This document shows positions 12,489-64,000 of a stretch of DNA of 64,000 nt, one piece after another. The notes under the pieces were generated by a model. It did not search any database. It saw only the letters and a list, made by a program, of their open reading frames with translations, and had not been told where the DNA came from. Source of the DNA: Terriglobales bacterium. GTDB taxonomy: Bacteria > Acidobacteriota > Terriglobia > Terriglobales > Acidobacteriaceae. The DNA is taken from contig JAICWP010000001.1 of the NCBI GenBank assembly GCA_025934735.1, positions 124,001 to 188,000 of the forward strand. Direction: 5' to 3'. Every line of letters begins with the position of its first letter. Positions within the stretch are counted from its first letter, which is position 1. Position numbers and translations under genes: made by a program.

Positions 12489-12979
12489 TTCATGCACTCC
12501 GCTCGTGATAGTGCGGCCAGCGACGCTTTGCCGCCGGTGCCGGCAGGGTATGCAGAGGCTGAGAACCGTGGTAATTGCCTGGGGAATCACGTTTCGCCCT
12601 CCAACGGAATTTTCTTCGGAGCCCCAGTCCATGCTAGGGCGAGGCAGGGAGGGAAGGGAGTCCACAGCCGGGTTCCCCCAGGGAAACGGCGGCCAGACGG
12701 TGGTGATGCCGGTCACGCAGGGGGGTGCGCTGCCAGCCCGGGGCAGAGTGGGACCGAGACCCCGATGTGATGCTTATCACACCGGCCTGTGGGCCGTATC
12801 ACAGCCAGACGTAAGCTTGCAGGCCGACACTAATTTTGTGCGAGCCTGCGCCGGGGCTGCTGAATCAGCGTGGTCCCCGGGGTGCACTGGAGCAAGGAGC
12901 GGCAGCAAACCACGCTGGACGGAAGGGACGGTGGTTGAGGAAACCCAACCGCCAGACAACTGGTCACAGGGAGGTGTGC
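12489..12979. other. Intergenic region upstream of the Crp/Fnr gene
   Basis: About 490 bases without a supported gene. It carries the CRP-like palindrome at 12766-12781. Open frames crossing it on both strands are rich in Gly/Pro/Arg and have no recognisable content. The Crp/Fnr frame itself remains open back to 12836, but that extension lacks a ribosome binding site. Confidence 0.5.
12766..12781. promoter_or_regulatory. CRP-type operator, TGTGA-N6-TCACA
   Basis: TGTGATGCTTATCACA matches the E. coli CRP consensus half-sites exactly. It lies 199 bases before the start of the full-length Crp/Fnr gene, consistent with autoregulation if the promoter is distal. It is one of seven GTGA-N6-TCAC palindromes found near the cytochrome loci. 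Confidence 0.65.
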
Positions 12980-13699
12980 GTGCTCTCACCATATGGGTTG
13001 GAAATTGTCGAAAGCTGTTTGACCTGCAAGGTGCGTGCAGAACGCATCTTCTGTGACCTGCCCAACGCCGCGTTGCAGGCCTTTGAAAACATCAAGTATG
13101 CCACCGCGTATCCCAAGGGCGCGGTGCTGTTCGTGGAGGGGCAAAATCCGCGCGGCATTTTTGTTCTCTGCAAGGGACGGGTGAAAATGTCCATCTGCTC
13201 CACCGATGGCAAGACGCTGATTCTGAAAATCGCCGAACCAGGGGAAGTGCTTGGCCTAAGCGCCACGGTTTCCGGCAAGCCCTACGAGTTGACGGCGGAA
13301 ACCATTGATCCCTGCCAGGTAAATTTCGTAAAGCGGGAAGATTTCCTGCGCTTCCTGAAGGAGCACGGAGATGCCTGCTTCCGCGTGGCGGAACAGCTCA
13401 GTGAGAAATACAACAATGCGTGCCACGAGGTGCGCTCCCTGGGCCTTTCGCACTCGGCGGCGGAAAAGCTAGCCAAACTGCTGCTGGAGTGGAGTTCGCG
13501 CAACGGAGAGGCCGCCAAGCAGGAACCGCGAATGAAGCTGGCGCTTACACACGAGGAGATCGCGCAGATGATCGGCACTTCGCGCGAGACGGTAACGCGG
13601 TTGTTCGCGGAACTGAAAAAACGGCAGATTGTGCAGTCCAAGGGTTCCACCCTGCTTATCCGTAACAAGGCGGCGCTCCGGCAGATAGCAGGCGCATAA
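12980..13699 (+). CDS. Crp/Fnr-family transcriptional regulator with Cys-rich N-terminus
   Basis: The 239-residue protein has a cyclic-nucleotide-type sensor barrel (about 26-130), a dimerisation helix and a C-terminal winged helix (about 187-215, LTHEEIAQMIGTSRETVTRL). The recognition helix carries R202, E203 and R207 in the R-E-x3-R spacing that in CRP reads TGTGA; FNR has Val in place of the first Arg. Five cysteines (13, 16, 25, 64, 73) recur at identical spacing in the next gene, giving C-x2-C-x8-C, so an Fe-S or thiol sensor is possible. The Arg that binds the cAMP phosphate in CRP is not found after PGEVLGL. The GTG at 12980 is chosen because AGGGAGG lies five bases upstream; length then matches the family. 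It heads the cytochrome island and is the likely regulator of the GTGA-N6-TCAC sites. Confidence 0.9.
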   Translation: MLSPYGLEIVESCLTCKVRAERIFCDLPNAALQAFENIKYATAYPKGAVLFVEGQNPRGIFVLCKGRVKMSICSTDGKTLILKIAEPGEVLGLSATVSGKPYELTAETIDPCQVNFVKREDFLRFLKEHGDACFRVAEQLSEKYNNACHEVRSLGLSHSAAEKLAKLLLEWSSRNGEAAKQEPRMKLALTHEEIAQMIGTSRETVTRLFAELKKRQIVQSKGSTLLIRNKAALRQIAGA

Positions 13700-13733: not shown

Positions 13734-13747
13734 GTGACTCGAGTCAC
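13734..13747. promoter_or_regulatory. Crp-type operator before the HTH-less Crp gene
   Basis: GTGACTCGAGTCAC is a perfect 14-bp palindrome of the GTGA-N6-TCAC type. It sits between the stop of the full-length Crp/Fnr gene and the start of its paralogue, 34 bases before the latter. A further GTCAC/GTGAC inverted pair overlaps it on the left (13721-13738). Confidence 0.6.
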
Positions 13748-13781
13748 TGCCTGTGTTCCCCTCAAGAGCTATCAAGAGCAT

Positions 13782-14279
13782 ATGGAAAGCGCCATCCAAC
13801 TGAGCTGCTTTGATTGCTCCCTGCGGCCGGACCGGGTTTTTTGTGACCTGCCTGCGGATGCGCTGGAAGCGTTCGACGCCATCAAGACCACCGCCCTGTA
13901 CCCGCGTGGCACCACCTTGTTCACCGAGGGGCGTCCCGCGCGCGGGGTGTTCATGCTGTGCGACGGCCGAGCAAAGCTCTCGGTGTGTTCGGGCAACGGG
14001 CGGCGGTTGACGCTGCGCATTGCCGGTCCGGGCGAAATGCTGGGGCTGAGCGCCGCGGTGTCAGGAACTCCCTACGAAGTCACCGCCGAAATGCTGGACA
14101 ACTCCCAGGTGGCCTTCGTGCGCCGCAAGGACATGCTGCGTTTCCTGCGGATGCATCGCGACGCCTGCCTGCAGGTTGTGCACCTGCTCAGCCAGGATCT
14201 GCACACGGCCTACGACCGGGTACGGGCGATTGGGTTGGTTCGTACGCGCCATCACCCGGCGGTCAAAGCTGTGTCTTGA
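13782..14279 (+). CDS. Crp/Fnr-like sensor-domain protein lacking the DNA-binding domain
   Basis: The 165-residue product is a paralogue of the preceding regulator: SCFDCSLRPDRVFCDLP aligns with SCLTCKVRAERIFCDLP, and the sensor barrel (PGEMLGLSAAVSGTPYEVTAE) and dimer helix follow in register. The chain stops shortly after the dimerisation helix (RVRAIGLVRTRHHPAVKAVS), so there is no winged helix. All five cysteines of the full-length copy are kept (9, 12, 21, 60, 69). No HTH-coding sequence is seen in other frames before the next gene at 14352, so a simple recent frameshift is unlikely. It could form mixed dimers that block DNA binding, or act as a stand-alone sensor. Start at ATG 13782, with AAGAG upstream. 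Confidence 0.85.
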   Translation: MESAIQLSCFDCSLRPDRVFCDLPADALEAFDAIKTTALYPRGTTLFTEGRPARGVFMLCDGRAKLSVCSGNGRRLTLRIAGPGEMLGLSAAVSGTPYEVTAEMLDNSQVAFVRRKDMLRFLRMHRDACLQVVHLLSQDLHTAYDRVRAIGLVRTRHHPAVKAVS

Positions 14280-14351: not shown

Positions 14352-14822
14352 ATGTGTATTCGCGAGCCAGGCTTTGCCTTCTTTCGGGTTGCAATCTGTG
14401 CGGTCCTGCTGATTTGTCCTCTGTTGCGCGCCCAGACGCGAAATTCCCAATACGTCGGCAGCGACTCTTGTGTGGCCTGCCACGAGGATGTGGCCGGCAA
14501 GATCGCCGAATCCGCCCACGGCAAATTGGCCGGCGAAAGCACGCCCTCGCGCCGGGGCTGCGAGGGCTGCCATGGGCCGGGCAGCAATCATGTGAACAGC
14601 GGCGGCGACAAGAGCCTGCTGTTCAGTTTCAAGGACGCATCGGCGGAGGCCATCCGCGGCCGTTGCGGGTCCTGCCACGAGACCGAGTCCGGCTCGGTGC
14701 ACTCCCAGCACACCACCAACTGCCTCAGTTGCCACGCAGCGCACCGTTATCGCCAGACGAAATTTATTCTGGCGCAGGCTCCGCCCCAGCTATGTACCGA
14801 CTGCCATGACCGGCGGCATTAA
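14352..14822 (+). CDS. Periplasmic pentahaem c-type cytochrome
   Basis: The 156-residue protein has a signal peptide (FFRVAICAVLLICPLLRAQ) and five CxxCH haem c sites: CVACH, CEGCH, CGSCH, CLSCH and CTDCH. The order and the linking segments (YVGSDSCVACHED, GCEGCHGPGSNHV, GGDKSLLFSF) resemble the first part of the DmsE/MtrA-type decahaem cytochromes, and of the decahaem protein at 59875 in this window (YVGSETCKGCHED, CEACHGPGAAHV, GGDKSK). It is thus like a half-length MtrA. The start at 14352 follows CAGGAGG eight bases upstream. It lies 72 bases after the HTH-less Crp gene and is probably an electron carrier between the membrane quinol oxidase modules downstream and an unknown partner. Confidence 0.9.
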   Translation: MCIREPGFAFFRVAICAVLLICPLLRAQTRNSQYVGSDSCVACHEDVAGKIAESAHGKLAGESTPSRRGCEGCHGPGSNHVNSGGDKSLLFSFKDASAEAIRGRCGSCHETESGSVHSQHTTNCLSCHAAHRYRQTKFILAQAPPQLCTDCHDRRH

Positions 14823-14906: not shown

Positions 14907-14913
14907 AGGTGCA

Positions 14914-14929
14914 AGTGAGTGCACTCACT
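14914..14929. promoter_or_regulatory. Crp-type operator, site 2 of a 22-bp-spaced pair
   Basis: AGTGAGTGCACTCACT is a perfect 16-bp palindrome (GTGA-N6-TCAC core at 14915-14928), centred at 14921.5. It is about 67 bases before the 11-haem gene start. The same two-site spacing recurs before the radical SAM gene. Confidence 0.65.
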
Positions 14930-14995
14930 GCGGATAAGTGTGCCAATCAGCCAACAATAGAGGGTAATACTGGCCGACTGGAGGAGGTCAGTTCC

Positions 14996-17068
14996 ATGCG
15001 CTCTGGTGCTGATTGTGCGCCGCGCCTTCCGACCTCGCGCCCCAGGAATTGGGCGCTGCTGGCAGCTGTTCTCCTGATTTGCGGACTATCCTTTGGGCAG
15101 AAACTGAGCAACTCCGATTGCCTTGCGTGTCACGGAGATAACACGCTGAGCAAGGAGGAAAGCGGCAAGCAGGTCAGCCTGTACGTTGACGACAAGAAAT
15201 TCCAGGGCTCGGTGCACAGCGTTTTTGGATGCACCGATTGCCACAGCGACGTCAAGGCGGTGCCGCACGAAGCGGCGCCGGCCAAGCCGGCTTGCGCCAC
15301 CTGCCATGCCGACCAGCAAGCGGCCTACGACACCGGTTTTCACGCGGCGGCACGCAAAAAGGGAGATACACGGGCAGCGCGCTGCGTGGATTGTCACGGC
15401 AGCCCGCATGAAATCGTGGCCGCCAGCGATCCGGTGTCTCGCGTGCACCGCACCAACATTCCCGCCACCTGCGGCGCCTGCCACGGGCAGAAGTTCGTGA
15501 TGGAAGCCAGCGGTCACAGCGCCCAGCCCTTTGCTTCGTATCAACAAAGCGTGCATGGGCGGGCAGTGGCGGCGGGATCGGAAAAGGCGGCGGTGTGCAC
15601 CGATTGCCACGGCAGCCACGATATCCGCGCGGCGAGTGATCCCAAGTCGCCGATTTTCAAGTTCAACGTGCCCAACACCTGCGGACAGTGCCATGGCGGG
15701 GTGAAGAAGGTTTACACGGAGAGCATTCACGGCACCGCCATCGCACGCGGCAACTGGCAGGCTCCGGTGTGCACCGATTGCCACGGGATCCACTCCATCA
15801 AGGCGCCGCTGGACCCAGCTTCCACGGTTTCGGCGCAGTTGGTGGCGCAAGCAACCTGCGCGCGCTGCCATGAAGGCGTGCGCCTGACGCAGGAATTCGG
15901 CGTGCCCGCGCACCGGGTGAGCACGTACATGGACAGCTATCACGGACTGGCCTCGCGCCTGGGATCGCAGGTGGTGGCCAACTGCGCCAGTTGTCACGGG
16001 GTGCACAACATTCTGCCCTCATCCGACCCGCGTTCCACGATTAATCGCGCCAACCTGGTGAAGACCTGCGGGCAGTGCCATCCCGGAGTCAGCCAGAAAT
16101 TCGTGCTGGCCAAGGTGCACGTGGACGCGCCGCTTTCGGCGGATACGGGCAGCGTGGCGGTGCGCTGGGTCCGCCGTTTTTACGTGAGTATGATCCTGGC
16201 GGTGATTGGGGCCATGCTGGCGCACAATTTGTTGATCTGGCGCCGGAAGGCGATAGCGCGGCGCAAAGCGGAGCACCGCGTGGTGGTACGCATGACCCTT
16301 AACCAGCGGGTGCAGCACCTGATCCTGCTGACCAGCTTCTTTGTGCTGGTGATCACAGGATTCGCGCTCAAGTTCCCGGACTCCTGGTTTGCCGCCATGG
16401 TGGGAGGCGAGACGGTGCGCGGCATCGTTCACCGCGTGGCGGCGGTGGTGCTTATCTCGCTCGGCTTGTACCACCTGATCTATGCCGCTGCCAGCCGCGA
16501 AGGGCAGCGCCTGCTGCGGGATTTTCTGCCCGGGCTGAAGGATGCACGCGATGTGGCAGACAACCTGGGCCACTACCTGGGATTGGGCCGGGAGCGGCCG
16601 CAATTCGCCCGCTTCAACTATGCGGAGAAGGCGGAGTACTGGGCGCTGGTTTGGGGCATGGTGGTGATGGCCGCTACCGGCATCATGCTCTGGGCCAAAG
16701 TCACGGTTGGCGACCTGATCCCGCGCTGGTGGCTGGATGTGGCGGTGGCGGTGCACTTCTACGAGGCGGTGCTGGCCACTCTCGCCATTGTGGCCTGGCA
16801 TTTCTACCAGGTGTTCTTCGATCCCGACACTTACCCGATGAACTGGGCGTGGTACGACGGCAAAATGTCAGTGGAGCACTACCGCGAAGAGCACGGACTG
16901 GATGCCCAGACGTTGCTGGAAGCCAGCGGCGCGGAACAGACGGTTGCGGGATGTGACCAGCCTGAAGCCGCATCTGAAGCGGGCAAGAACGGCGACGAGA
17001 GGGGTCCGAAAAGGGAACAATCGCCAATGGAAGAAGAGCAGGAAGAAGCGGTATCTCCGAATCCTTGA
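14996..17068 (+). CDS. Fusion of an 11-haem cytochrome c with a membrane cytochrome b
   Basis: The 690-residue protein has an N-terminal signal/anchor (WALLAAVLLICGLSFGQ), then eleven CxxCH motifs between about residues 41 and 362 (CLACH, CTDCH, CATCH, CVDCH, CGACH, CTDCH, CGQCH, CTDCH, CARCH, CASCH, CGQCH). Five hydrophobic helices follow at about 391-412, 438-460, 477-498, 547-566 and 582-607, with histidines in AHNLL, VQHLIL, VHRVA, YHLIY, VHFYEA and AWHFYQ, as in the di-haem cytochrome b561/FdnI/HyaC superfamily. The layout suggests one chain that oxidises quinol at haem b and passes electrons into a long periplasmic haem wire, or the reverse. The C-terminal 80 residues are charged and disordered. 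Start at 14996 follows GAGGAGG eight bases upstream. The NapC-like gene begins 42 bases later. Confidence 0.92.
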   Translation: MRSGADCAPRLPTSRPRNWALLAAVLLICGLSFGQKLSNSDCLACHGDNTLSKEESGKQVSLYVDDKKFQGSVHSVFGCTDCHSDVKAVPHEAAPAKPACATCHADQQAAYDTGFHAAARKKGDTRAARCVDCHGSPHEIVAASDPVSRVHRTNIPATCGACHGQKFVMEASGHSAQPFASYQQSVHGRAVAAGSEKAAVCTDCHGSHDIRAASDPKSPIFKFNVPNTCGQCHGGVKKVYTESIHGTAIARGNWQAPVCTDCHGIHSIKAPLDPASTVSAQLVAQATCARCHEGVRLTQEFGVPAHRVSTYMDSYHGLASRLGSQVVANCASCHGVHNILPSSDPRSTINRANLVKTCGQCHPGVSQKFVLAKVHVDAPLSADTGSVAVRWVRRFYVSMILAVIGAMLAHNLLIWRRKAIARRKAEHRVVVRMTLNQRVQHLILLTSFFVLVITGFALKFPDSWFAAMVGGETVRGIVHRVAAVVLISLGLYHLIYAAASREGQRLLRDFLPGLKDARDVADNLGHYLGLGRERPQFARFNYAEKAEYWALVWGMVVMAATGIMLWAKVTVGDLIPRWWLDVAVAVHFYEAVLATLAIVAWHFYQVFFDPDTYPMNWAWYDGKMSVEHYREEHGLDAQTLLEASGAEQTVAGCDQPEAASEAGKNGDERGPKREQSPMEEEQEEAVSPNP

Positions 17069-17110: not shown

Positions 17111-18643
17111 ATGGATAACGACGCAAACACAGAAGCTGGCCAGCGGCGAATTAGAATCAGCAACCGCTTCCGCCATCCTTTGGCGGCGATTGGCGGGGCC
17201 TTAGCGCTGGTCAGCCTGGCTAATATTCTCTTCCTGTTTCTGATTGATGTTTTCTCGCCGCGGCACAGTCCCTACATCGGAATTCTCGCCTACATGATCC
17301 TGCCGGGGTTTCTAATCCTGGGGCTGGCGCTAGTTCCCATGGGCATGTACCTGGCGCGCCGGCAGCGGCTACGGCAGGACGGGGTGGAGGGGCCGGTTTA
17401 TCCGCAAATTGACCTGAACGAGCCGGCGCAGCGCAGCACGGTGGCATTCTTCTTCAGCTTTGTAGTGGTGTTCGTGGTGCTGAGCGCAGTGGGCAGCTAT
17501 CGCGGTTACGAGTTTACAGACTCCGTTCAGTTTTGCGGCCAGCTTTGCCATTCGGTGATGAATCCGGAATTCACCGCCTACCAGCTTTCGCCACACGCCC
17601 GGGTGCGCTGCGTGGACTGCCACGTGGACGCGGGCGCCACCTGGTATGTGCGCTCTAAGCTCTCCGGAGCGCGCCAGGTGTATGCCACCATGCTCAACCG
17701 CTTTCCCCGGCCCATCCCCACGCCGGTGGAGAACCTGCGGCCGGCGCAGGAAACTTGCGAGCAGTGTCACTGGCCGCGCAAGTTTTATGGCGCGCAGCTG
17801 AAGGTAATCACGCACTATGCGTACGATGAGAAGAACACCCCGCGGCAGATTCGGCTGCTGATCAAGACCGGCGGCGGAGATCCGGGAATCGGCATGACCA
17901 CCGGGATCCACTGGCACATGAACATTGCCAATGAAATCACCTACGTCACGCCCGATAAGACCCATGCAGCCATCCCTTACGTTCACGTCAAGGACATGCA
18001 GGGCCGGGTGACCGACTATATGGCCAAGGACACTCCTTTGACCAAAACGCAGATTGAGACGCTGCCGCGCCGGCGCATGGACTGCGTGGACTGCCATAAC
18101 CGGCCCACGCATATCTACGTACCCCCGGACCGCTCAGTGGACCAATCGCTGCTGGCGCGCCGGATTGACGCTACGCTGCCCTATATCAAACAACAGGGTG
18201 TGACCGCGATCACCACCAGCTATGCCAACACCGACCAGGCCATGCAGGGGATCGCCACCGCGGTGCACAACTTTTATGCCGGCAAGTATCCGCAGCTGGA
18301 GAACGCGAAACAGCTGGAGATCCGTGATGCTATTACGGAACTGCAGCGCCTGTATCGCACCACGACCTTTCCGGAGATGAAGATTGACTGGAAGACCCAT
18401 CCCGATAATATTGGGCACTTCTACTTTTCGGGTTGCTTCCGTTGCCATGATGGACAGCACGTGAGCGCCGACGGCAAGGTGATTCGCAAGGATTGCACCA
18501 TTTGCCACACCATCCTCAGCCAGGAGGAGGGCGGAACCCAGCCCACCGCTATTGAGGGAGCTGCATTCAAGCATCCGGTGGACCTCGGCGACATCAGCGC
18601 GGCCAATTGCAGCGACTGCCATACCGGGGGAGTGGGGCCGTAG
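17111..18643 (+). CDS. NapC/NirT-type membrane multihaem cytochrome c
   Basis: The 510-residue protein has three N-terminal hydrophobic helices (about 25-48, 52-80 and 114-135), followed by the NapC/NirT core. Haem sites are CGQLCH (a C-x3-CH form, with the NirT-type Met in HSVMNPEF), CVDCH, CEQCH, CVDCH, CFRCH, CTICH and CSDCH, seven in all. NapC/NirT proteins oxidise menaquinol and feed periplasmic reductases or, as CymA, extracellular electron transfer. The family core usually has four haems and one helix; this copy is longer at both ends. It probably forms an operon with the 11-haem/cytochrome b gene upstream. A close paralogue starts at 63376. No strong ribosome binding site precedes the ATG; the start is supported by alignment of the first helix with the paralogue. 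Confidence 0.93.
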   Translation: MDNDANTEAGQRRIRISNRFRHPLAAIGGALALVSLANILFLFLIDVFSPRHSPYIGILAYMILPGFLILGLALVPMGMYLARRQRLRQDGVEGPVYPQIDLNEPAQRSTVAFFFSFVVVFVVLSAVGSYRGYEFTDSVQFCGQLCHSVMNPEFTAYQLSPHARVRCVDCHVDAGATWYVRSKLSGARQVYATMLNRFPRPIPTPVENLRPAQETCEQCHWPRKFYGAQLKVITHYAYDEKNTPRQIRLLIKTGGGDPGIGMTTGIHWHMNIANEITYVTPDKTHAAIPYVHVKDMQGRVTDYMAKDTPLTKTQIETLPRRRMDCVDCHNRPTHIYVPPDRSVDQSLLARRIDATLPYIKQQGVTAITTSYANTDQAMQGIATAVHNFYAGKYPQLENAKQLEIRDAITELQRLYRTTTFPEMKIDWKTHPDNIGHFYFSGCFRCHDGQHVSADGKVIRKDCTICHTILSQEEGGTQPTAIEGAAFKHPVDLGDISAANCSDCHTGGVGP

Positions 18644-18854: not shown

Positions 18855-18925
18855 GGCCCTAAGTGCGCACCTTTTCTATCGTAGGAGCTGCAGGGATGTG
18901 GGCTCAGCGGGAAAAGGAGAGCACC

Positions 18926-20191
18926 ATGGCGCATGGCAGCGGTGAGGCGGCGGAGGTCAAAACTTCGCCCAGGCTGATTTTCTGGGAAGTGACCAAGGGC
19001 TGTAATCTGCGCTGCATCCATTGCCGGGCCAGCGCCACCGAACTCAGTTCGCCTTCCGACCTCAGCACCGCCACCGCGCTTGGCATCATTGACCAGATCG
19101 CAGCAGCCGGCAATCCCATCCTGGTGCTCAGTGGCGGCGAGCCGCTCTACCGCTCCGACATTTTTCAACTGGCGCGTTATGGAACCGACCGCGGCTTGCG
19201 CGTCGCCCTGGCCACCAATGGCACTCTGGTGACCCGGGAAGTGGCTCGCATGATCGTGGATTCGGGCGTGCGCCGCGTCTCCATCAGCCTGGATGGCGCC
19301 GATTCGCTGACCCACGATACCTTCCGCGGCATTCCGGGTGCGTTTGACGCGGCCGTGCAGGGGCTGCGCAACCTGAAGGCGCTGGGGATGTCGGTGCAGA
19401 TCAACATGACCATCGCCCGCCACAATGCGCGCCAGTTGCCGCAAGTGCTGGAACTGGCCAAACGGCTGGGAGCGGATGCGCTGCATACTTTCCTGCTGGT
19501 GCCGGTGGGTTGCGGAGTGGATATTGCCGCCGAGCAGATGGTGGCGCCGGAAGAGTACGAAGAGATGCTGAACTGGTTTTACGACCGCTCGCTGGAGGGC
19601 GGCATTGAGCTGAAGGCTACCTGCGCTCCTCATTACTTTCGCGTGGTGCGGCAACGGCGTGCCGCCGAACGCAAAGGCACGGACGGGGAACGAAGGCCCG
19701 CTGCAAACCCTGAGCAGCGGCCAATTCCGGGGACGATCGGGCCCTCGGAAATGGCCATGCCGGGCTCCACCGGCTTAGTCATTCATCACTCGGCAGCGGG
19801 CGCAGGACATCCGGCCGGCACGCACCATGGTCATCCTGGAGACATGAACGCCATGACCAAGGGCTGCCTGGCGGGCACCGGCGTCTGCTTCATTTCCCAC
19901 GAGGGTGAAATCTATCCCTGCGGGTATCTGCCGGTGCTGGCCGGCGATTTGCGGCGCCAGACCTTTACCGAGATCTGGGAAAAGTCCCTGGTGTTCGAGC
20001 AACTGCGCGACAGTAGCAATTTGAAGGGGAAGTGCGGCTGTTGCGAATTCCGCAACGTGTGCATGGGATGCAGGGCGCGCGCCTTCGCCGCCAGCGGCGA
20101 TTTTCTGGATGAGGAGCCGTTCTGCGTTTACCAGCCGAAAGCTGGCGAGAAGACCAGAGACACGAAAGCAGTACGCCCCGCGGCCCTGTAA
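18926..20191 (+). CDS. Radical SAM/SPASM protein of the AhbD/NirJ (haem-modifying) type
   Basis: The 421-residue enzyme carries the radical SAM cluster motif KGCNLRCIHC (C26, C30, C33), SGGEPL, and a C-terminal SPASM-type region with CGCCEFRNVCMGCRARAFAA and EEPFC. This pattern matches AhbD, which decarboxylates Fe-coproporphyrin to haem, and NirJ of haem d1 synthesis. Lacking other d1 genes, AhbD-like is the more economical reading, and supply of haem to the neighbouring cytochromes fits. An insert at about 285-306 is rich in His (HHSAAGAGHPAGTHHGHPG) and is not a usual part of the family as I know it. Start at 18926 follows AAAAGGAG; an upstream frame back to 18863 overlaps no operator but lacks a site. 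Two GTGA-N6-TCAC sites precede it. Confidence 0.87.
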   Translation: MAHGSGEAAEVKTSPRLIFWEVTKGCNLRCIHCRASATELSSPSDLSTATALGIIDQIAAAGNPILVLSGGEPLYRSDIFQLARYGTDRGLRVALATNGTLVTREVARMIVDSGVRRVSISLDGADSLTHDTFRGIPGAFDAAVQGLRNLKALGMSVQINMTIARHNARQLPQVLELAKRLGADALHTFLLVPVGCGVDIAAEQMVAPEEYEEMLNWFYDRSLEGGIELKATCAPHYFRVVRQRRAAERKGTDGERRPAANPEQRPIPGTIGPSEMAMPGSTGLVIHHSAAGAGHPAGTHHGHPGDMNAMTKGCLAGTGVCFISHEGEIYPCGYLPVLAGDLRRQTFTEIWEKSLVFEQLRDSSNLKGKCGCCEFRNVCMGCRARAFAASGDFLDEEPFCVYQPKAGEKTRDTKAVRPAAL

Positions 20192-20359: not shown

Positions 20360-21214
20360 ATGAATATGTCACTGATTCTTGGTTCGGCGGCAGTGCCCGG
20401 ACCGCGGCTGCACGCCCTGGTAGTGCCGCGCGAGCACGGCGCCTGGGGGATGCTGCTGGTGCCGCTGGCGACGGGAGCGGCGGTCGGGTTGATGCGGGGC
20501 GGCCAGGCGCTGCCGGTCATCATTTTAACCATGGCGGCGCTGGCCCTATTCTGGCTGCGAACGCCGCTGGAAAGCTGGCTGGGCACCACCCCGTTGCGTG
20601 CGCAATCCGCTGCCGAGCGGCGGGCGGTGCTGGTATTCGTCCTTCTTCTTTCCTGCGTGGCTGCTCTGATGTTCTCCGCGCTCTTCTGGGATGGACGGAA
20701 CCGCAACCTGTTGCCACTGGGTGCGATAGTGGCGCTGTCCTTCGTTAGCCAGGCTGGGCTCAAGAAGGTGAGCCGAAAATTGCGCATGGCGGCGCAAGTG
20801 GCTGGCGCCTTCGGGTTGACGGCTGCGGCACCCGCTGCCTACTCGGTAGCGACCGGACGGATTGACTCCACGGCAGCTGCGCTGTGGCTGGCCAACTGGC
20901 TGTTTGCCGGCGACCAGATCCACTTTGTGCAGTTGCGCATTCATTCCGCACGGGCTCGGGCAGCGGACGAGAAGCTGCGGCGCGGGCGCACCTTTTTAGC
21001 TGGGCAAATCGGATTGGCCGCCGTACTCATCCTGAGCGTCAACTTCGGCTTCCTGCCCTGGCTGGCGCTGCTGGCGTTCGCACCAGTGTTAGTGCGCGGA
21101 ATCGCCTGGTTCCTGCGCGCCTCCCAGCCTCTAGCGGTTCGCCGCCTGGGTTGGAGTGAACTTGCCCAGTCAGTGGCGTTCGGGGTGCTGCTGGTTGCGG
21201 CATTCCGCATTTGA
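20360..21214 (+). CDS. YwiC-like integral membrane protein
   Basis: The 284-residue protein has the YwiC hallmark near its N-terminus, PREHGAWGMLLVP, followed by seven or eight hydrophobic helices and the motif FAGDQIHFVQLRIHS. YwiC in Bacillus subtilis lies beside narK and fnr, and YwiC-like genes often accompany anaerobic respiration genes, but no activity is proven. The PREHGAW and GDQ-x-H motifs recall the polar active-site motifs of UbiA-type prenyltransferases, which is only a resemblance. It is the last gene of the cytochrome island, 168 bases after the radical SAM gene. The ATG at 20360 has no strong ribosome binding site; ATG 20366 is an alternative. Confidence 0.85.
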   Translation: MNMSLILGSAAVPGPRLHALVVPREHGAWGMLLVPLATGAAVGLMRGGQALPVIILTMAALALFWLRTPLESWLGTTPLRAQSAAERRAVLVFVLLLSCVAALMFSALFWDGRNRNLLPLGAIVALSFVSQAGLKKVSRKLRMAAQVAGAFGLTAAAPAAYSVATGRIDSTAAALWLANWLFAGDQIHFVQLRIHSARARAADEKLRRGRTFLAGQIGLAAVLILSVNFGFLPWLALLAFAPVLVRGIAWFLRASQPLAVRRLGWSELAQSVAFGVLLVAAFRI

Positions 21215-59874: not shown

Positions 59875-60825
59875 ATGTATTTCCGCATCGGCAAGCTGCC
59901 TTTCCTGTTTTTCCCCTTCCTGCTGGTATCTGTGAGTCATGTGCAGGCGCGACATGTGCAGCAAAACACGGCGCAGACCAGTGCAGCAACCCAAACGAAG
60001 GATTCTAAGCAGTACGTGGGTTCTGAAACCTGCAAGGGCTGTCACGAAGACGTCTACAAAGCCACAGAACAAACGCCCCACTATAAGATGGGATTCCAGC
60101 CCGGCGCCCCGGGCAAGGGGTTGAATTGCGAAGCATGCCACGGTCCCGGGGCAGCACACGTGGAAGGTGGAGGCGACAAAAGCAAGATCATCGTGTTCGA
60201 GAACCTGAGCATGGCGGAGGCGAACAAGCGTTGCCTTAGCTGTCATACCTACGGCAACGAGCATGCAAACTTCACCCGTTCAGCGCATGCGAGCAATGAT
60301 ATCGGCTGCATTAGTTGCCATTCACCGCACCATGCCAAGACGCAGAGGGCCCTGCTGGTGGAGAAGCAGCCACAGCTTTGCTACCAGTGCCACACGGAGG
60401 TCAAGGCCGAATTCAGCCGCCCCTACCGGCATCGGGTAAACCAGGGGTTGGTGCAGTGCACTGATTGCCACAACGAGCACGGAGGGTTCCTGCCCAAGCA
60501 GTTGCGGACCAGCGCGGCCCAGGATCAAGTCTGTTTCAAGTGCCATACTGAGAAAAAGGGACCGTTTGTCTTCGAACACCTGCCGGTAGAGACGGAAGGT
60601 TGCGTCAGCTGCCACACGCCGCACGGCTCAACCAACCCGCGTCTGCTGAGGGTAAGCCAGGTCAACCTGCTCTGTCTGCAGTGCCATACCCTGGCGATGA
60701 GCAACGTGCCCTCGCAGCCGCCCATCGGTCCGGCGCATAACCAGGCCCAGAAATACCAGGCCTGCACCATGTGCCACGCGTTTATTCACGGCTCCAATTT
60801 CAGTGAGGTCTTCTTCAAGCCCTAG
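59875..60825 (+). CDS. DmsE/MtrA-type periplasmic decahaem cytochrome c
   Basis: The 316-residue protein has a signal peptide (LPFLFFPFLLVSVSHVQA) and exactly ten CxxCH motifs: CKGCH, CEACH, CLSCH, CISCH, CYQCH, CTDCH, CFKCH, CVSCH, CLQCH and CTMCH. The length, haem number and order, and endings such as GSETCKGCHEDV and HTPHGS match DmsE/MtrA/PioA, which carry electrons through an outer-membrane barrel. The gene for an MtrB/PioB-type barrel follows in the same direction after about 100 bases, supporting a porin-cytochrome complex. ATG 59875 follows GGAGGG. The first half resembles the pentahaem protein at 14352. Confidence 0.95.
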   Translation: MYFRIGKLPFLFFPFLLVSVSHVQARHVQQNTAQTSAATQTKDSKQYVGSETCKGCHEDVYKATEQTPHYKMGFQPGAPGKGLNCEACHGPGAAHVEGGGDKSKIIVFENLSMAEANKRCLSCHTYGNEHANFTRSAHASNDIGCISCHSPHHAKTQRALLVEKQPQLCYQCHTEVKAEFSRPYRHRVNQGLVQCTDCHNEHGGFLPKQLRTSAAQDQVCFKCHTEKKGPFVFEHLPVETEGCVSCHTPHGSTNPRLLRVSQVNLLCLQCHTLAMSNVPSQPPIGPAHNQAQKYQACTMCHAFIHGSNFSEVFFKP

Positions 60826-60928: not shown

Positions 60929-63145
60929 ATGAGAAAGAGCTTGTGGTTATTCGTGGTCCTCCTGCTTATGCCTTCGTGGGCTTTGGCACAGGCCGGCGCG
61001 GCGGGAACACCCACACCTGCGGCCGCGGAAGGAAAGGACATCAGCGACTATCACATCGAACAGAGCATTGAGCTGGGCTACCGCTTCAGTGAGGTTAACG
61101 GCAGTGGTTCCATGTTTGACACCTTCATCAATCAACACGCTGGTCCTCGCTTCCTCGATCAGACGCTCTCCATGCACTCGCTAAACAACGCTGGTGTATT
61201 GTTCGACGATCTCAACGTAAGCAGCTTCGGGTGGGGGGGTGACCCGGAAAACGTCGGACGAGTAAGCGTCTCGAAGAATAAATGGTATGACTTCAGCTTC
61301 CTGTTCCGGCGCGATCAGAACTTCTTTGATTATGACCTGCTGGCAAACCCGTTGAATCCTCCGACGTCGACGCCCCACCTTCCGGTCGGATTTTCTCCCC
61401 ACGAGATGCAGATCCGGCGCCGCATGTACGATACCGGTTTGACACTGATGCCGCAGTCGAAGGTCACCCTGCGGCTCGGCCATACACGCAATCGGTCGGA
61501 GGGCCCCTCATTCTCCAGCTTCCATGAAGGGACAGATCCACTCCTGGACCAGGCTTGGAATGTTACCCAGAACGACTACCACTTCGGCGTAGATTTCAAG
61601 ATGCTCTCAAAAACTAACCTCAGCTATGACCAGTTCCTGGAATACGACAGGAACGATACCAACTGGAGCCTGAGCCCATACAATGTTTTTCTGCTGCCCG
61701 ATGGCACTCCCGTTTCCCTTGGCCTGCCTATCAATTCCGATGCCGGCCAGCCTTGTACGCCGGTTTTCAGAAATGATTCGGTCAACACCCGTTGTAACGG
61801 GTACTTTGCCTATACACGCAGCCAGCGAGTTCGTACCACCACGCCGACAGAGTCTCTGAGCCTGCAATCAACATATCTAAAACGTGTGAATTTGGTCGCC
61901 CGCGCTACTTACAGTTCAGCCGACATGAACTCACCCTATGCGGAATTCTTTGACGGCCTGGTGACACGTACCAATGAACGGCAGTTCACATTTTCCGGGC
62001 CTGCGCACGTGCGGCGAATTGCCGTCACTTCTGATCTCGGCGTAACCGTCGAGCTAACCAGCAAGCTTAATCTCAGCGACAATTTCCGTTACGACAACTG
62101 GCATATGCCGGGCACCTGGGATTCGCTGGCCACAGCGACGGTCGGGCTTGGCACACGCGTGACCCTGCTCAGTCCGCTTGGTCCCACAGAAACGACTACC
62201 GCTTTTGTCGCCAATTTCCTCGGCCAAAAGTCGTTCCTCAACCTGATACAAGCGGAATACCTGGCCTCAAAGCACTTCGGCGTGCACGTCGGTTTCCGCT
62301 TCCGGCATCGCCACGTGTTCAAGGCAGAGCCAGAGACCTTTACCGATCCAGAGGCGGGCTTGGCGGAATTTGAAGGCGATAGCATAGACGTGAACGAGTA
62401 CACGCCGGTAGTTGGCGTGTGGTTCCGGCCGACATCGGCGTTGCGCATCAACCTGGAAGCCGAAGCGACCTCGGCGGATAATTTCATTACCCGCATCAGC
62501 CCACGGCAACGGCAGAACTATCGCGCGCGGGCAAGTTACCGGCCGGTTCGGTGGGCCAACCTCGCGGGAAGCCTGAACATCTGGGAAAGCCGCAATGGTG
62601 AGCCAGACACGCAGTTCAAGCAGCATTATCGCAACGTGGGTTTTGTGGCCTCTCTGCTTCCCAAGGAACGCGTCGGATTCGATGTGAGCTACAACTACAC
62701 CAACGCCCTGCAGCAGGCGCTGATCTGCTTCAACTTCAGCGATACCGTTATCCCTGCGGGCACGGTGGTGAACGGATGTCCAACCTTTGATCCGGCGGAG
62801 AATAACAATCCGAATCAAGTTCTTTCCACCTATGTGAACCACACGCATTATTTTGCAGCTAACCTGATGGTCAAGCCGGTGAAGCAGGTCACGGCCAAGG
62901 TGGGCTACGGCCTTACCAGCGTGAACGGTACCACGACCTTGCTTAACCCGCTGCAGCCACTCGGACCGCTGGATTTCACCTACCACCAACCCCTGGCGGA
63001 ACTCAGCTACGAGCTTGCCAAGTACTGGAGTGTTAACGCCTGCTGGAACTACGACCAGTACAATGAAGGTTCATTCATCGGCCCGACCAGTCCTCGTTAC
63101 TTCCATGACAATCGGACTACGCTGTCGCTGAAGTATGCGTTCTAG
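60929..63145 (+). CDS. MtrB/PioB-type outer-membrane beta-barrel
   Basis: The 738-residue protein has a signal peptide (KSLWLFVVLLLMPSWALAQ) and then continuous alternating beta strands with aromatic girdles (IELGYRF, WYDFSFLFRRDQNFFDYD, KVTLRLGHTRNRSEGPSF, VHVGFRFRHRHVF), ending in LSLKYAF, the C-terminal Phe expected of outer-membrane barrels. Size and position after a decahaem cytochrome match MtrB/PioB, the sheath around MtrA/PioA. The N-terminal CxxC found in Shewanella MtrB is not seen. The start at ATG 60929 follows AGGGAG; the frame extends to 60803 across the end of the decahaem gene, but without a signal peptide. No extracellular MtrC/OmcA-type cytochrome gene follows in the window. 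Confidence 0.9.
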   Translation: MRKSLWLFVVLLLMPSWALAQAGAAGTPTPAAAEGKDISDYHIEQSIELGYRFSEVNGSGSMFDTFINQHAGPRFLDQTLSMHSLNNAGVLFDDLNVSSFGWGGDPENVGRVSVSKNKWYDFSFLFRRDQNFFDYDLLANPLNPPTSTPHLPVGFSPHEMQIRRRMYDTGLTLMPQSKVTLRLGHTRNRSEGPSFSSFHEGTDPLLDQAWNVTQNDYHFGVDFKMLSKTNLSYDQFLEYDRNDTNWSLSPYNVFLLPDGTPVSLGLPINSDAGQPCTPVFRNDSVNTRCNGYFAYTRSQRVRTTTPTESLSLQSTYLKRVNLVARATYSSADMNSPYAEFFDGLVTRTNERQFTFSGPAHVRRIAVTSDLGVTVELTSKLNLSDNFRYDNWHMPGTWDSLATATVGLGTRVTLLSPLGPTETTTAFVANFLGQKSFLNLIQAEYLASKHFGVHVGFRFRHRHVFKAEPETFTDPEAGLAEFEGDSIDVNEYTPVVGVWFRPTSALRINLEAEATSADNFITRISPRQRQNYRARASYRPVRWANLAGSLNIWESRNGEPDTQFKQHYRNVGFVASLLPKERVGFDVSYNYTNALQQALICFNFSDTVIPAGTVVNGCPTFDPAENNNPNQVLSTYVNHTHYFAANLMVKPVKQVTAKVGYGLTSVNGTTTLLNPLQPLGPLDFTYHQPLAELSYELAKYWSVNACWNYDQYNEGSFIGPTSPRYFHDNRTTLSLKYAF

Positions 63146-63375
63146 AGTGAGTCAGGGGGCCGCGGTTTCTACCGTGAAGGCTTCGTTGAAAAGCGACTTT
63201 CACCGCCCGCTGGCCGAGCTGCAGTATGATCTCTCCCACGGTTGGGCGGCAAAAGCGGCTACGGTTATGGAGGAAAGGAAGGTCTGGGTCCCACTCTGCC
63301 CCGGAACTTCCACGCCAACTCCGTATCCTTAGTCTCACCATCTACGCCTTTTGACTCCGGTAACATAAAAGGAGC

Positions 63376-64000
63376 ATGAGCACGGAAGAGAACGAAACTG
63401 CATCTGCGGACAACAGGGCGCCGGGCCTGACGCGGAATCTGTTCAGCATCATCGGCCTGGCGATGGCGGTCGTCGCCGGCGCCAACATTGCCTTCCTGGT
63501 ACTGCTGGAGGCGCTGCGCCCCAACCCCTACATCGGTATTTTTGCTTACATGATCCTGCCCGGCATCATGGTGCTGGGCCTGATCCTGATTCCGATTGGC
63601 ATGGCGCTGGAGCGCCGCCGCCGCCGCAAAATGGCCCCGGGCGAGGTCCCACGCTTCCCCCGCCTGGACTTAAATGTTCCTTCGCAGCGCAGCGCCGTGG
63701 CGTTTTTCTTCAGCTTCACCGCGGTATTCGTCAGCCTCAGTGCGGTGGGCAGCTATCGGGCGTATGAATTCACTGATTCGGTGCAGTTCTGCGGCCAGCT
63801 CTGCCACACCATCATGAACCCGGAGTTCACTACCTATTTGAAGTCTCCGCATGCACGGGTGGCCTGTGTGGATTGCCACGTTGGGCCGGGGGCGGGCTGG
63901 TACGTGCGCTCCAAGCTTTCCGGCGCCTACCAGGTGTATGCCGCCTTCGCCAAGGTGTATCCGCGTCCCATTCCTACTCCGGTGGCCAACCTGCGCCCGG
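63376..64000 (+). CDS. NapC/NirT-type multihaem cytochrome, second copy (partial, runs off the window)
   Basis: The frame from ATG 63376 is open to the end of the window (208 codons). It aligns with the NapC-like protein at 17111 along its whole length: PYIGIFAYMILPGIMVLGL versus PYIGILAYMILPGFLILGL, and EFTDSVQFCGQLCH identical in both, followed by NPEFTTY, HARVACVDCHVGPGAGWYVR and KLSGAYQVYA. Three hydrophobic N-terminal helices, the C-x3-CH first haem and one CxxCH are visible before the edge. AAAAGGAG lies close to the ATG. It follows the porin gene by 230 bases, and would supply electrons from the quinol pool to the decahaem-porin conduit, as CymA does for MtrCAB. Confidence 0.92.
   Translation, partial: MSTEENETASADNRAPGLTRNLFSIIGLAMAVVAGANIAFLVLLEALRPNPYIGIFAYMILPGIMVLGLILIPIGMALERRRRRKMAPGEVPRFPRLDLNVPSQRSAVAFFFSFTAVFVSLSAVGSYRAYEFTDSVQFCGQLCHTIMNPEFTTYLKSPHARVACVDCHVGPGAGWYVRSKLSGAYQVYAAFAKVYPRPIPTPVANLRP

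Follow-up and report, generated by a model that had tools for sequence, protein, structure and literature searches.

A CbcL-type fusion of an 11-haem cytochrome c with a membrane cytochrome b adjoins an ImcH-type gene in a Terriglobales bacterium

The analysed stretch of 64,000 nucleotides (the window) carries, on its plus strand, a gene for a CbcL-like fusion protein (positions 14996..17068). ORF, Pfam, hydropathy and AlphaFold2 analyses revealed that the encoded protein is composed of (i) a signal peptide, (ii) 11 c-type haem motifs and (iii) five membrane helices of the cytochrome b561/FdnI type. The ORF is stop-free from position 14909 to 17068 (+) and encodes 719 aa when counted from a GTG codon; translation from the ATG at 14996, downstream of a GGAGGAGG stretch, yields a protein of 690 aa, with the stop codon at 17066-17068. 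On this single chain Pfam recognised both Cytochrome_C7 (64.7 bits; cut-off 24.8) and Ni_hydr_CYTB, PF01292 (56.5 bits; cut-off 30.1), and Cytochrom_c3_2 was also matched above its cut-off within the haem part. The hydropathy profile contains an N-terminal helix, corresponding to the signal peptide, and five helices after the haem region, while the AlphaFold2 model has long helices at residues 387-425, 435-459, 472-499, 542-566 and 577-608 (690-aa numbering). Since the model was graded as only fair (mean pLDDT 68.7, pTM 0.44), we make no claim about haem-to-haem distances. The ORF, the motif count, the hydropathy and the model all agree with a preliminary description of this DNA, in which 11 CXXCH motifs and five helices had been placed on one polypeptide at the same coordinates.

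The periplasmic haem domain (15119..16081, +) was defined by its 11 CXXCH motifs. Module-to-module alignment revealed that haems 4-5, 6-7, 8-9 and 10-11 form four copies of one di-haem module of approximately 56 aa (z 13-28 against shuffles in the six pairwise alignments among the copies); membership of haems 2-3 in this repeat is not clear (z 3.3 against haems 4-5). We aligned 26 fusions, i.e. 24 from Terriglobia (including that of the window) and two from Desulfuromonadales. Besides the histidines of the motifs, those at positions 74, 91, 116, 138, 187, 208, 245, 266, 316, 337 and 375 of the haem domain were kept in all 24 Terriglobia rows, and eight of these 11 also occur in both Desulfuromonadales rows. 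The presence of 11 conserved extra histidines together with 11 CXXCH motifs leads us to expect 11 bis-histidine haems. Among 44 Terriglobia-set loci, 39 encode fusions with 11 CXXCH motifs and three with 13, the remaining two being short frames with 5 and 6 motifs (L083, which changes frame near a run of N, and L101, which begins at a contig end). In 20 loci of the wider phylum 11 motifs were found in 13 cases, nine in five, and 13 and 10 in one case each. The haem number among relatives of the fusion thus mostly changes by two.

The haem domain is joined to the membrane part by the first membrane helix (16154..16270, +; model residues 387-425), which is followed by the cytochrome b domain PF01292 (16292..16819, +). 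Histidines 441, 479, 587 and 602 of this domain are identical in all 26 aligned fusions. In a phmmer alignment to Escherichia coli FdnI (1kqf_C) they fall, counted by hand, on H18, H57, H155 and H169, which we take to be the ligands of the two b haems of that protein. This agrees with the preliminary description, in which histidines were said to be placed for haem b. FdnI was also the best PDB match of the fusion model (E 1.1e-3; TM 0.66, normalised by FdnI length), no structure in the PDB search being matched at E 0.001 or better. The window protein shares the four-helix core and the four histidines with FdnI and prokaryotic cytochrome b561 (PF01292), but differs from FdnI, which is a separate subunit, in having an additional front helix and a fused haem domain. 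Its architecture, together with the conserved ligand histidines, is far beyond chance.

Single-frame matches covering both the haem and the b part were detected in 38 of 100 genomes of the same family (58 with any match) and, at 400 bits or more, in 94 of 297 genomes of the phylum (185 with any match), the window genome being included in each count. The named genomes with relatives of the fusion comprise Terriglobia and Acidobacteriaceae MAGs, Candidatus Sulfotelmatobacter and Occallatibacter savannae, which suggests that the window derives from an acidobacterium of this neighbourhood; a tblastn search against plasmid records gave no match. One flagged stop was present in nine of the 94 phylum matches, six of which, when examined as loci (L023, L035, L043, L044, L048, L049), had an intact fused frame. 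From the 48 loci of the Terriglobia set we dropped L078, L079 and L107, which have the same sequence as L056, L054 and L061, as well as L068, whose fusion is not intact. The fused frame was found in 44 of the 45 distinct loci of this set and in 20/20 loci of the wider phylum, in samples that lean to strong matches: 20 Terriglobia stretches were hand-picked, mostly as the best family matches with the addition of G018, and 20 wider stretches were likewise picked from the phylum matches, plus G005. The single exception, L068 of genome G018, is broken between the haem domain and the first helix, forming two overlapping ORFs. This locus, the frame change of L083 and the existence of paralogous haem/b pairs encoded by separate genes are what could be cited for an error of assembly or frame that joined two genes in the window. 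The one-frame matches in so many family and phylum genomes, and the fused frame in 44 distinct Terriglobia-set and all wider loci, argue against such an error, whose probability we consider negligible, and we reject an assembly artefact on the strength of these one-frame fusions. Two genes and a stop in relatives, which the preliminary description had named as the sign of an artefact, are not the pattern observed.

Fusions of this kind have been described previously. CbcL of Geobacter sulfurreducens carries, on a single chain, nine c haems together with a di-haem b domain of six helices, according to the published account (PMC9129911). As summarised in a 2018 survey, 138 CbcL/MtrH/MtoC homologues with 3-23 CX2CH motifs occur in 15 phyla; their b domain is HydC/FdnI-like, mostly with six helices (five in four members and four in one), and contains three conserved histidines for the b haems (PMC6295460). 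We compared five Geobacter-type genomes (G. argillaceus, Geobacter sp. OR-1, Pelotalea chapellei and two Geobacter MAGs), in each of which the window protein found one fusion (E 1.5e-66 to 2e-58; 34-36% identity over the C-terminal two thirds) with nine CXXCH motifs, an FdnI-like part and an extra C-terminal helix. Judged from their sequences, these five fusions are CbcL as published. The statement of the preliminary description that the two components are separate subunits in known systems is therefore wrong, since CbcL fusions have been published (PMC9129911, PMC6295460) and are present in all five of these genomes; the same evidence rules out that the fusion is unprecedented.

With its 11 CX2CH motifs, PF01292 b domain and four invariant histidines, the window fusion agrees with the family as outlined in the survey (PMC6295460), although it lacks the usual six helices. 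By its sequence features it belongs to the broad CbcL/MtrH/MtoC family, G. sulfurreducens CbcL, MtrH and MtoC having been compared by their published description. As in Geobacter CbcL, an N-terminal multihaem part precedes a C-terminal FdnI-like b domain on one chain, the b histidines are conserved, and ImcH is encoded in the same genome, as in 5/5 of the Geobacter-type genomes. In contrast to the strict CbcL build of nine c haems and six helices, the window protein has 11 haems and five C-terminal helices, the terminal helix being absent, and the mean identity of Geobacter CbcL to the window type is 28.1% over the last three haems and the b domain.

Trees of this region (last three haems and b domain) placed the window type in an acidobacterial clade of its own (support 100/100), while Geobacter CbcL grouped with another acidobacterial kind (98/91 and 97/92), consisting of 11-/19-haem + cytochrome b pairs and fusions with 19-21 haems. 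The mean identity of Geobacter CbcL is 41.3% to the 19-haem pairs and 37.7% to the 11-haem pairs; the window type is on average 30-31% identical to the 11-/19-haem pairs. The long rows L033, L028, L046 and L041 were excluded from the second tree and from the AU test, and L199 from the AU test as well. This test did not reject (p 0.113) a tree that unites the window type with Geobacter CbcL to the exclusion of the acidobacterial pairs and long fusions, and the branches concerned are long. In an earlier tree of 98 rows, based on the b domain only and made without L175, which is a truncated copy of the L156 fusion, the split/CbcL group lay inside the window type; that tree was rooted among window-type rows by the very long row L163, and we base our conclusions on the other trees. 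Analysis of the tail downstream of the P-M motif, with which the b domain terminates, revealed a hydrophobic helix in 15/15 Geobacter and pair rows (Kyte-Doolittle maximum 2.1-3.0), versus none of the 11 window-type rows with this motif (maximum 0.49); the motif was not found in five more rows. The haem number and the five helices give no support to strict CbcL orthology. Because the AU result and the long branches leave the separation undecisive, we assign the fusion to the broad CbcL/MtrH/MtoC family and not to CbcL orthologues. It adds a somewhat divergent member to a family that is already known.

The acidobacterial 11-/19-haem + cytochrome b pairs and the 19-21-haem fusions represent a module of the same kind as the window fusion, but in the trees they cluster with Geobacter CbcL, and the terminal helix is present in them. 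A search of the window genome gave no match to such a haem/cytochrome b pair. Pair-type cytochrome b was found within the examined stretch in at least 13 of the 44 Terriglobia-set loci, a lower bound, as the flank lengths vary. In L062, L069, L070, L081, L084, L086, L117 and L128 a separate 11-/19-haem + cytochrome b pair adjoins the window-type fusion; these pairs are nearer to Geobacter CbcL, and their split point lies between the first and second membrane helix. Single-chain fusions of 981-1015 aa, in which 19-21 haems are joined to a b domain, were observed at L189:1175-4219, L190:1553-4495 and L204:6164-9145.

Directly downstream of the fusion gene lies a gene for an ImcH-type cytochrome of 510 aa (17111..18643, +), identified by motifs, hydropathy and homology. 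The protein has three N-terminal helices (residues 27-45, 56-74 and 110-128), a CX3CH motif (CGQLCH at 142) and six CX2CH motifs. The ImcH pattern given in the survey consists of three N-terminal helices, an adjacent CX3CH and 5-9 CX2CH (PMC6295460), so the predicted protein has the full ImcH architecture; it is also 45-48% identical to the ImcH proteins of all five Geobacter-type genomes, which are of the same build. The label "NapC protein", given to this neighbour previously, was too coarse. Of the 43 Terriglobia-set loci having 1.2 kb or more of downstream sequence (the window included; L080, with 1 nt downstream, was omitted), 30 carry an ImcH gene 3' of the fusion, on the same strand and no more than 300 nt away; the same holds for 4 of 20 wider loci. 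In the Geobacter MAG Bin_37_8 (L156, L175) imcH directly follows cbcL, as in the window. According to work on Geobacter, the potential of the extracellular acceptor determines whether ImcH or CbcL is needed, and a cbcL imcH double mutant is unable to reduce Fe(III) oxide (PMC5585712). The two predicted quinol entry points, of the CbcL type and ImcH, are thus a known pairing, encoded side by side in the window.

A second ImcH-type gene begins at position 63364 and runs past the window end (63364..64000, +); sequence comparison showed that it shares 59% identity with the first copy across 491 columns. Whereas the first copy adjoins the CbcL-type gene, the second one (L182:6865-8400) directly follows genes for a decahaem cytochrome and a barrel-like protein. 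The survey mentions no mtrAB beside imcH in its set (PMC6295460).

The other genes around the fusion are likewise on the plus strand. Upstream are (i) a Crp/Fnr-family regulator (12836..13699; Pfam, neighbourhood), which precedes the fusion in many relatives, (ii) a second Crp-like ORF with a cNMP-binding domain only (13734..14279; Pfam), which in the alignment shares 54% identity with this regulator across 145 aa, and (iii) a pentahaem cytochrome with a signal-peptide-like start (14352..14822; ORF, motifs, alignment). Downstream of imcH, a radical SAM/SPASM protein (18863..20191) gave its nearest profile match to AhbD (haem b synthase), at 474.5 bits, i.e. below the cut-off of 500, and is followed by a YwiC-like membrane protein (20360..21214; Pfam). 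In many relatives the region upstream of the fusion contains two Crp-like genes, a decahaem cytochrome gene and a gene for a large barrel-like protein. Among 16 relatives for which 7 kb or more of upstream sequence was available, eight have the decahaem/barrel-like pair upstream; in the wider set, 6 of 19 have it within the stretch, on either side. In the window, the pentahaem gene alone is upstream of the fusion, and the decahaem/barrel-like pair is located 43 kb away, at 59.9-63.1 kb. The first half of the window decahaem is 39% identical to the pentahaem protein over 135 aa.

The decahaem cytochrome of the window (59875..60825, +) is of the DmsE/MtrA type by profile match (TIGR03508, 276 bits; cut-off 192), and the decahaems of two tested relatives also fall into the DmsE family (277 and 256 bits; same cut-off). 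The gene after it (60929..63145, +) encodes the counterpart of the protein that in relatives separates the decahaem from the fusion. At E 5 this protein matched no Pfam family, neither PF11854 nor TIGR03509 was matched, and the only profile similarity was a weak one to the GSU2204 family (21.6 bits; cut-off 350); its AlphaFold2 model was unusable (mean pLDDT 27.7). A homologous counterpart that adjoins a decahaem in a different family of the phylum is 23% identical to the window protein (E 3e-30). Its position and such counterparts are the grounds on which we regard it as a putative barrel. Among relatives, the barrel of L062 is MtrB/PioB by Pfam (PF11854, E 2.4e-65), but its 189 bits are below the TIGR03509 cut-off of 240; the barrel-like proteins of L056 and L053 gave only weak GSU2204-family matches. 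The window pair is 67% (decahaem) and 46% (barrel-like protein) identical to that of L056.

The architecture of the fusion, the conservation of its ligands, its homology and its gene neighbourhood are established. From these features we consider it probable that the fusion is a CbcL-type quinol:periplasmic-cytochrome oxidoreductase serving extracellular respiration, with ImcH as a second entry. Its five-helix b domain would bind two b haems and oxidise menaquinol, and electrons would pass through the b haem nearest the periplasm to the 11 bis-histidine c haems of the same chain, and from there to soluble or outer-membrane cytochromes. Together with the adjacent ImcH-type protein the fusion would provide two quinol oxidases, which in Geobacter act at different redox potentials. 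The likely destination would be an extracellular acceptor (Fe(III), humics or other cells), reached via the decahaem/barrel conduit. We infer quinol oxidation, the direction of flow, the partner proteins and the final acceptor by analogy with CbcL and ImcH. The preliminary description had proposed a self-contained quinol:haem-wire module and two parallel quinol entry points; the single-chain architecture of the former and the adjacency of the ImcH-type gene in the latter stand as observed, while quinol oxidation and entry are suggested by the homology.

Several observations speak against the extracellular reading: the conduit is 43 kb off, the barrel-like protein lacks a Pfam match, ImcH is adjacent in only 4/20 wider loci, and the fusion is devoid of the terminal helix of CbcL. 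The same quinol oxidase might instead feed a soluble periplasmic reductase, for which the Crp/Fnr genes, the YwiC-like gene and the pentahaem gene nearby would also be suited. NapC-type quinol dehydrogenases commonly serve periplasmic reductases, which fits this alternative. We nevertheless regard it as unlikely, since no reductase was found among ten annotated neighbouring proteins of the fusion and 8/16 relatives combine the fusion with the decahaem and barrel-like genes. Moreover, PF02335 (NrfA family) had no match in the window genome, the E. coli control being positive; NrfA nitrite reductase was therefore rejected as a partner, which makes the simplest soluble-acceptor explanation less likely. 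Flow in the inward direction, as in MtoC, with Fe(II), a syntrophic partner or another donor outside the cell supplying the quinone pool, would be compatible with the occurrence of the family in Fe(II) oxidisers as well, and with the survey's remark that no sequence feature separates the directions (PMC6295460). The adjacent ImcH, known to that survey from Fe(III) reducers only (PMC6295460), argues against inward flow, which we judge quite improbable.

The fusion is real, well conserved and of interest for acidobacterial respiration, although its kind is already known. For Acidobacteria, the 2018 survey gives 2 CbcL-type and 19 ImcH proteins (PMC6295460), compared with a strong one-frame match in 94 of the 297 phylum genomes analysed here. 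Should the fusion function as CbcL does, extracellular respiration would be a widespread capacity within a major phylum of soil bacteria, and a CbcL-type fusion gene followed by imcH would be a simple genetic marker of it in Terriglobia. A bolder reading, which we put forward as speculation with a low chance of being correct, is that the window type constitutes a second acidobacterial lineage of single-chain quinol oxidases, which differs in function and forms one physical unit with ImcH. In such a unit a single haem wire would receive the electrons of two quinol sites of different potential, and in relatives it would be linked to a conduit through the outer membrane. Many soil Terriglobia that are as yet uncultured would in this way respire outside the cell.

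Further multihaem proteins are encoded in the window genome. Elsewhere in this genome a nine-haem cytochrome is located beside a cytochrome b6/ExtP-like protein (L183:6646-8950; G000:C17), and a similar nine-haem + cytochrome b6/ExtP-like pair is present near the fusion in L193 and L194.
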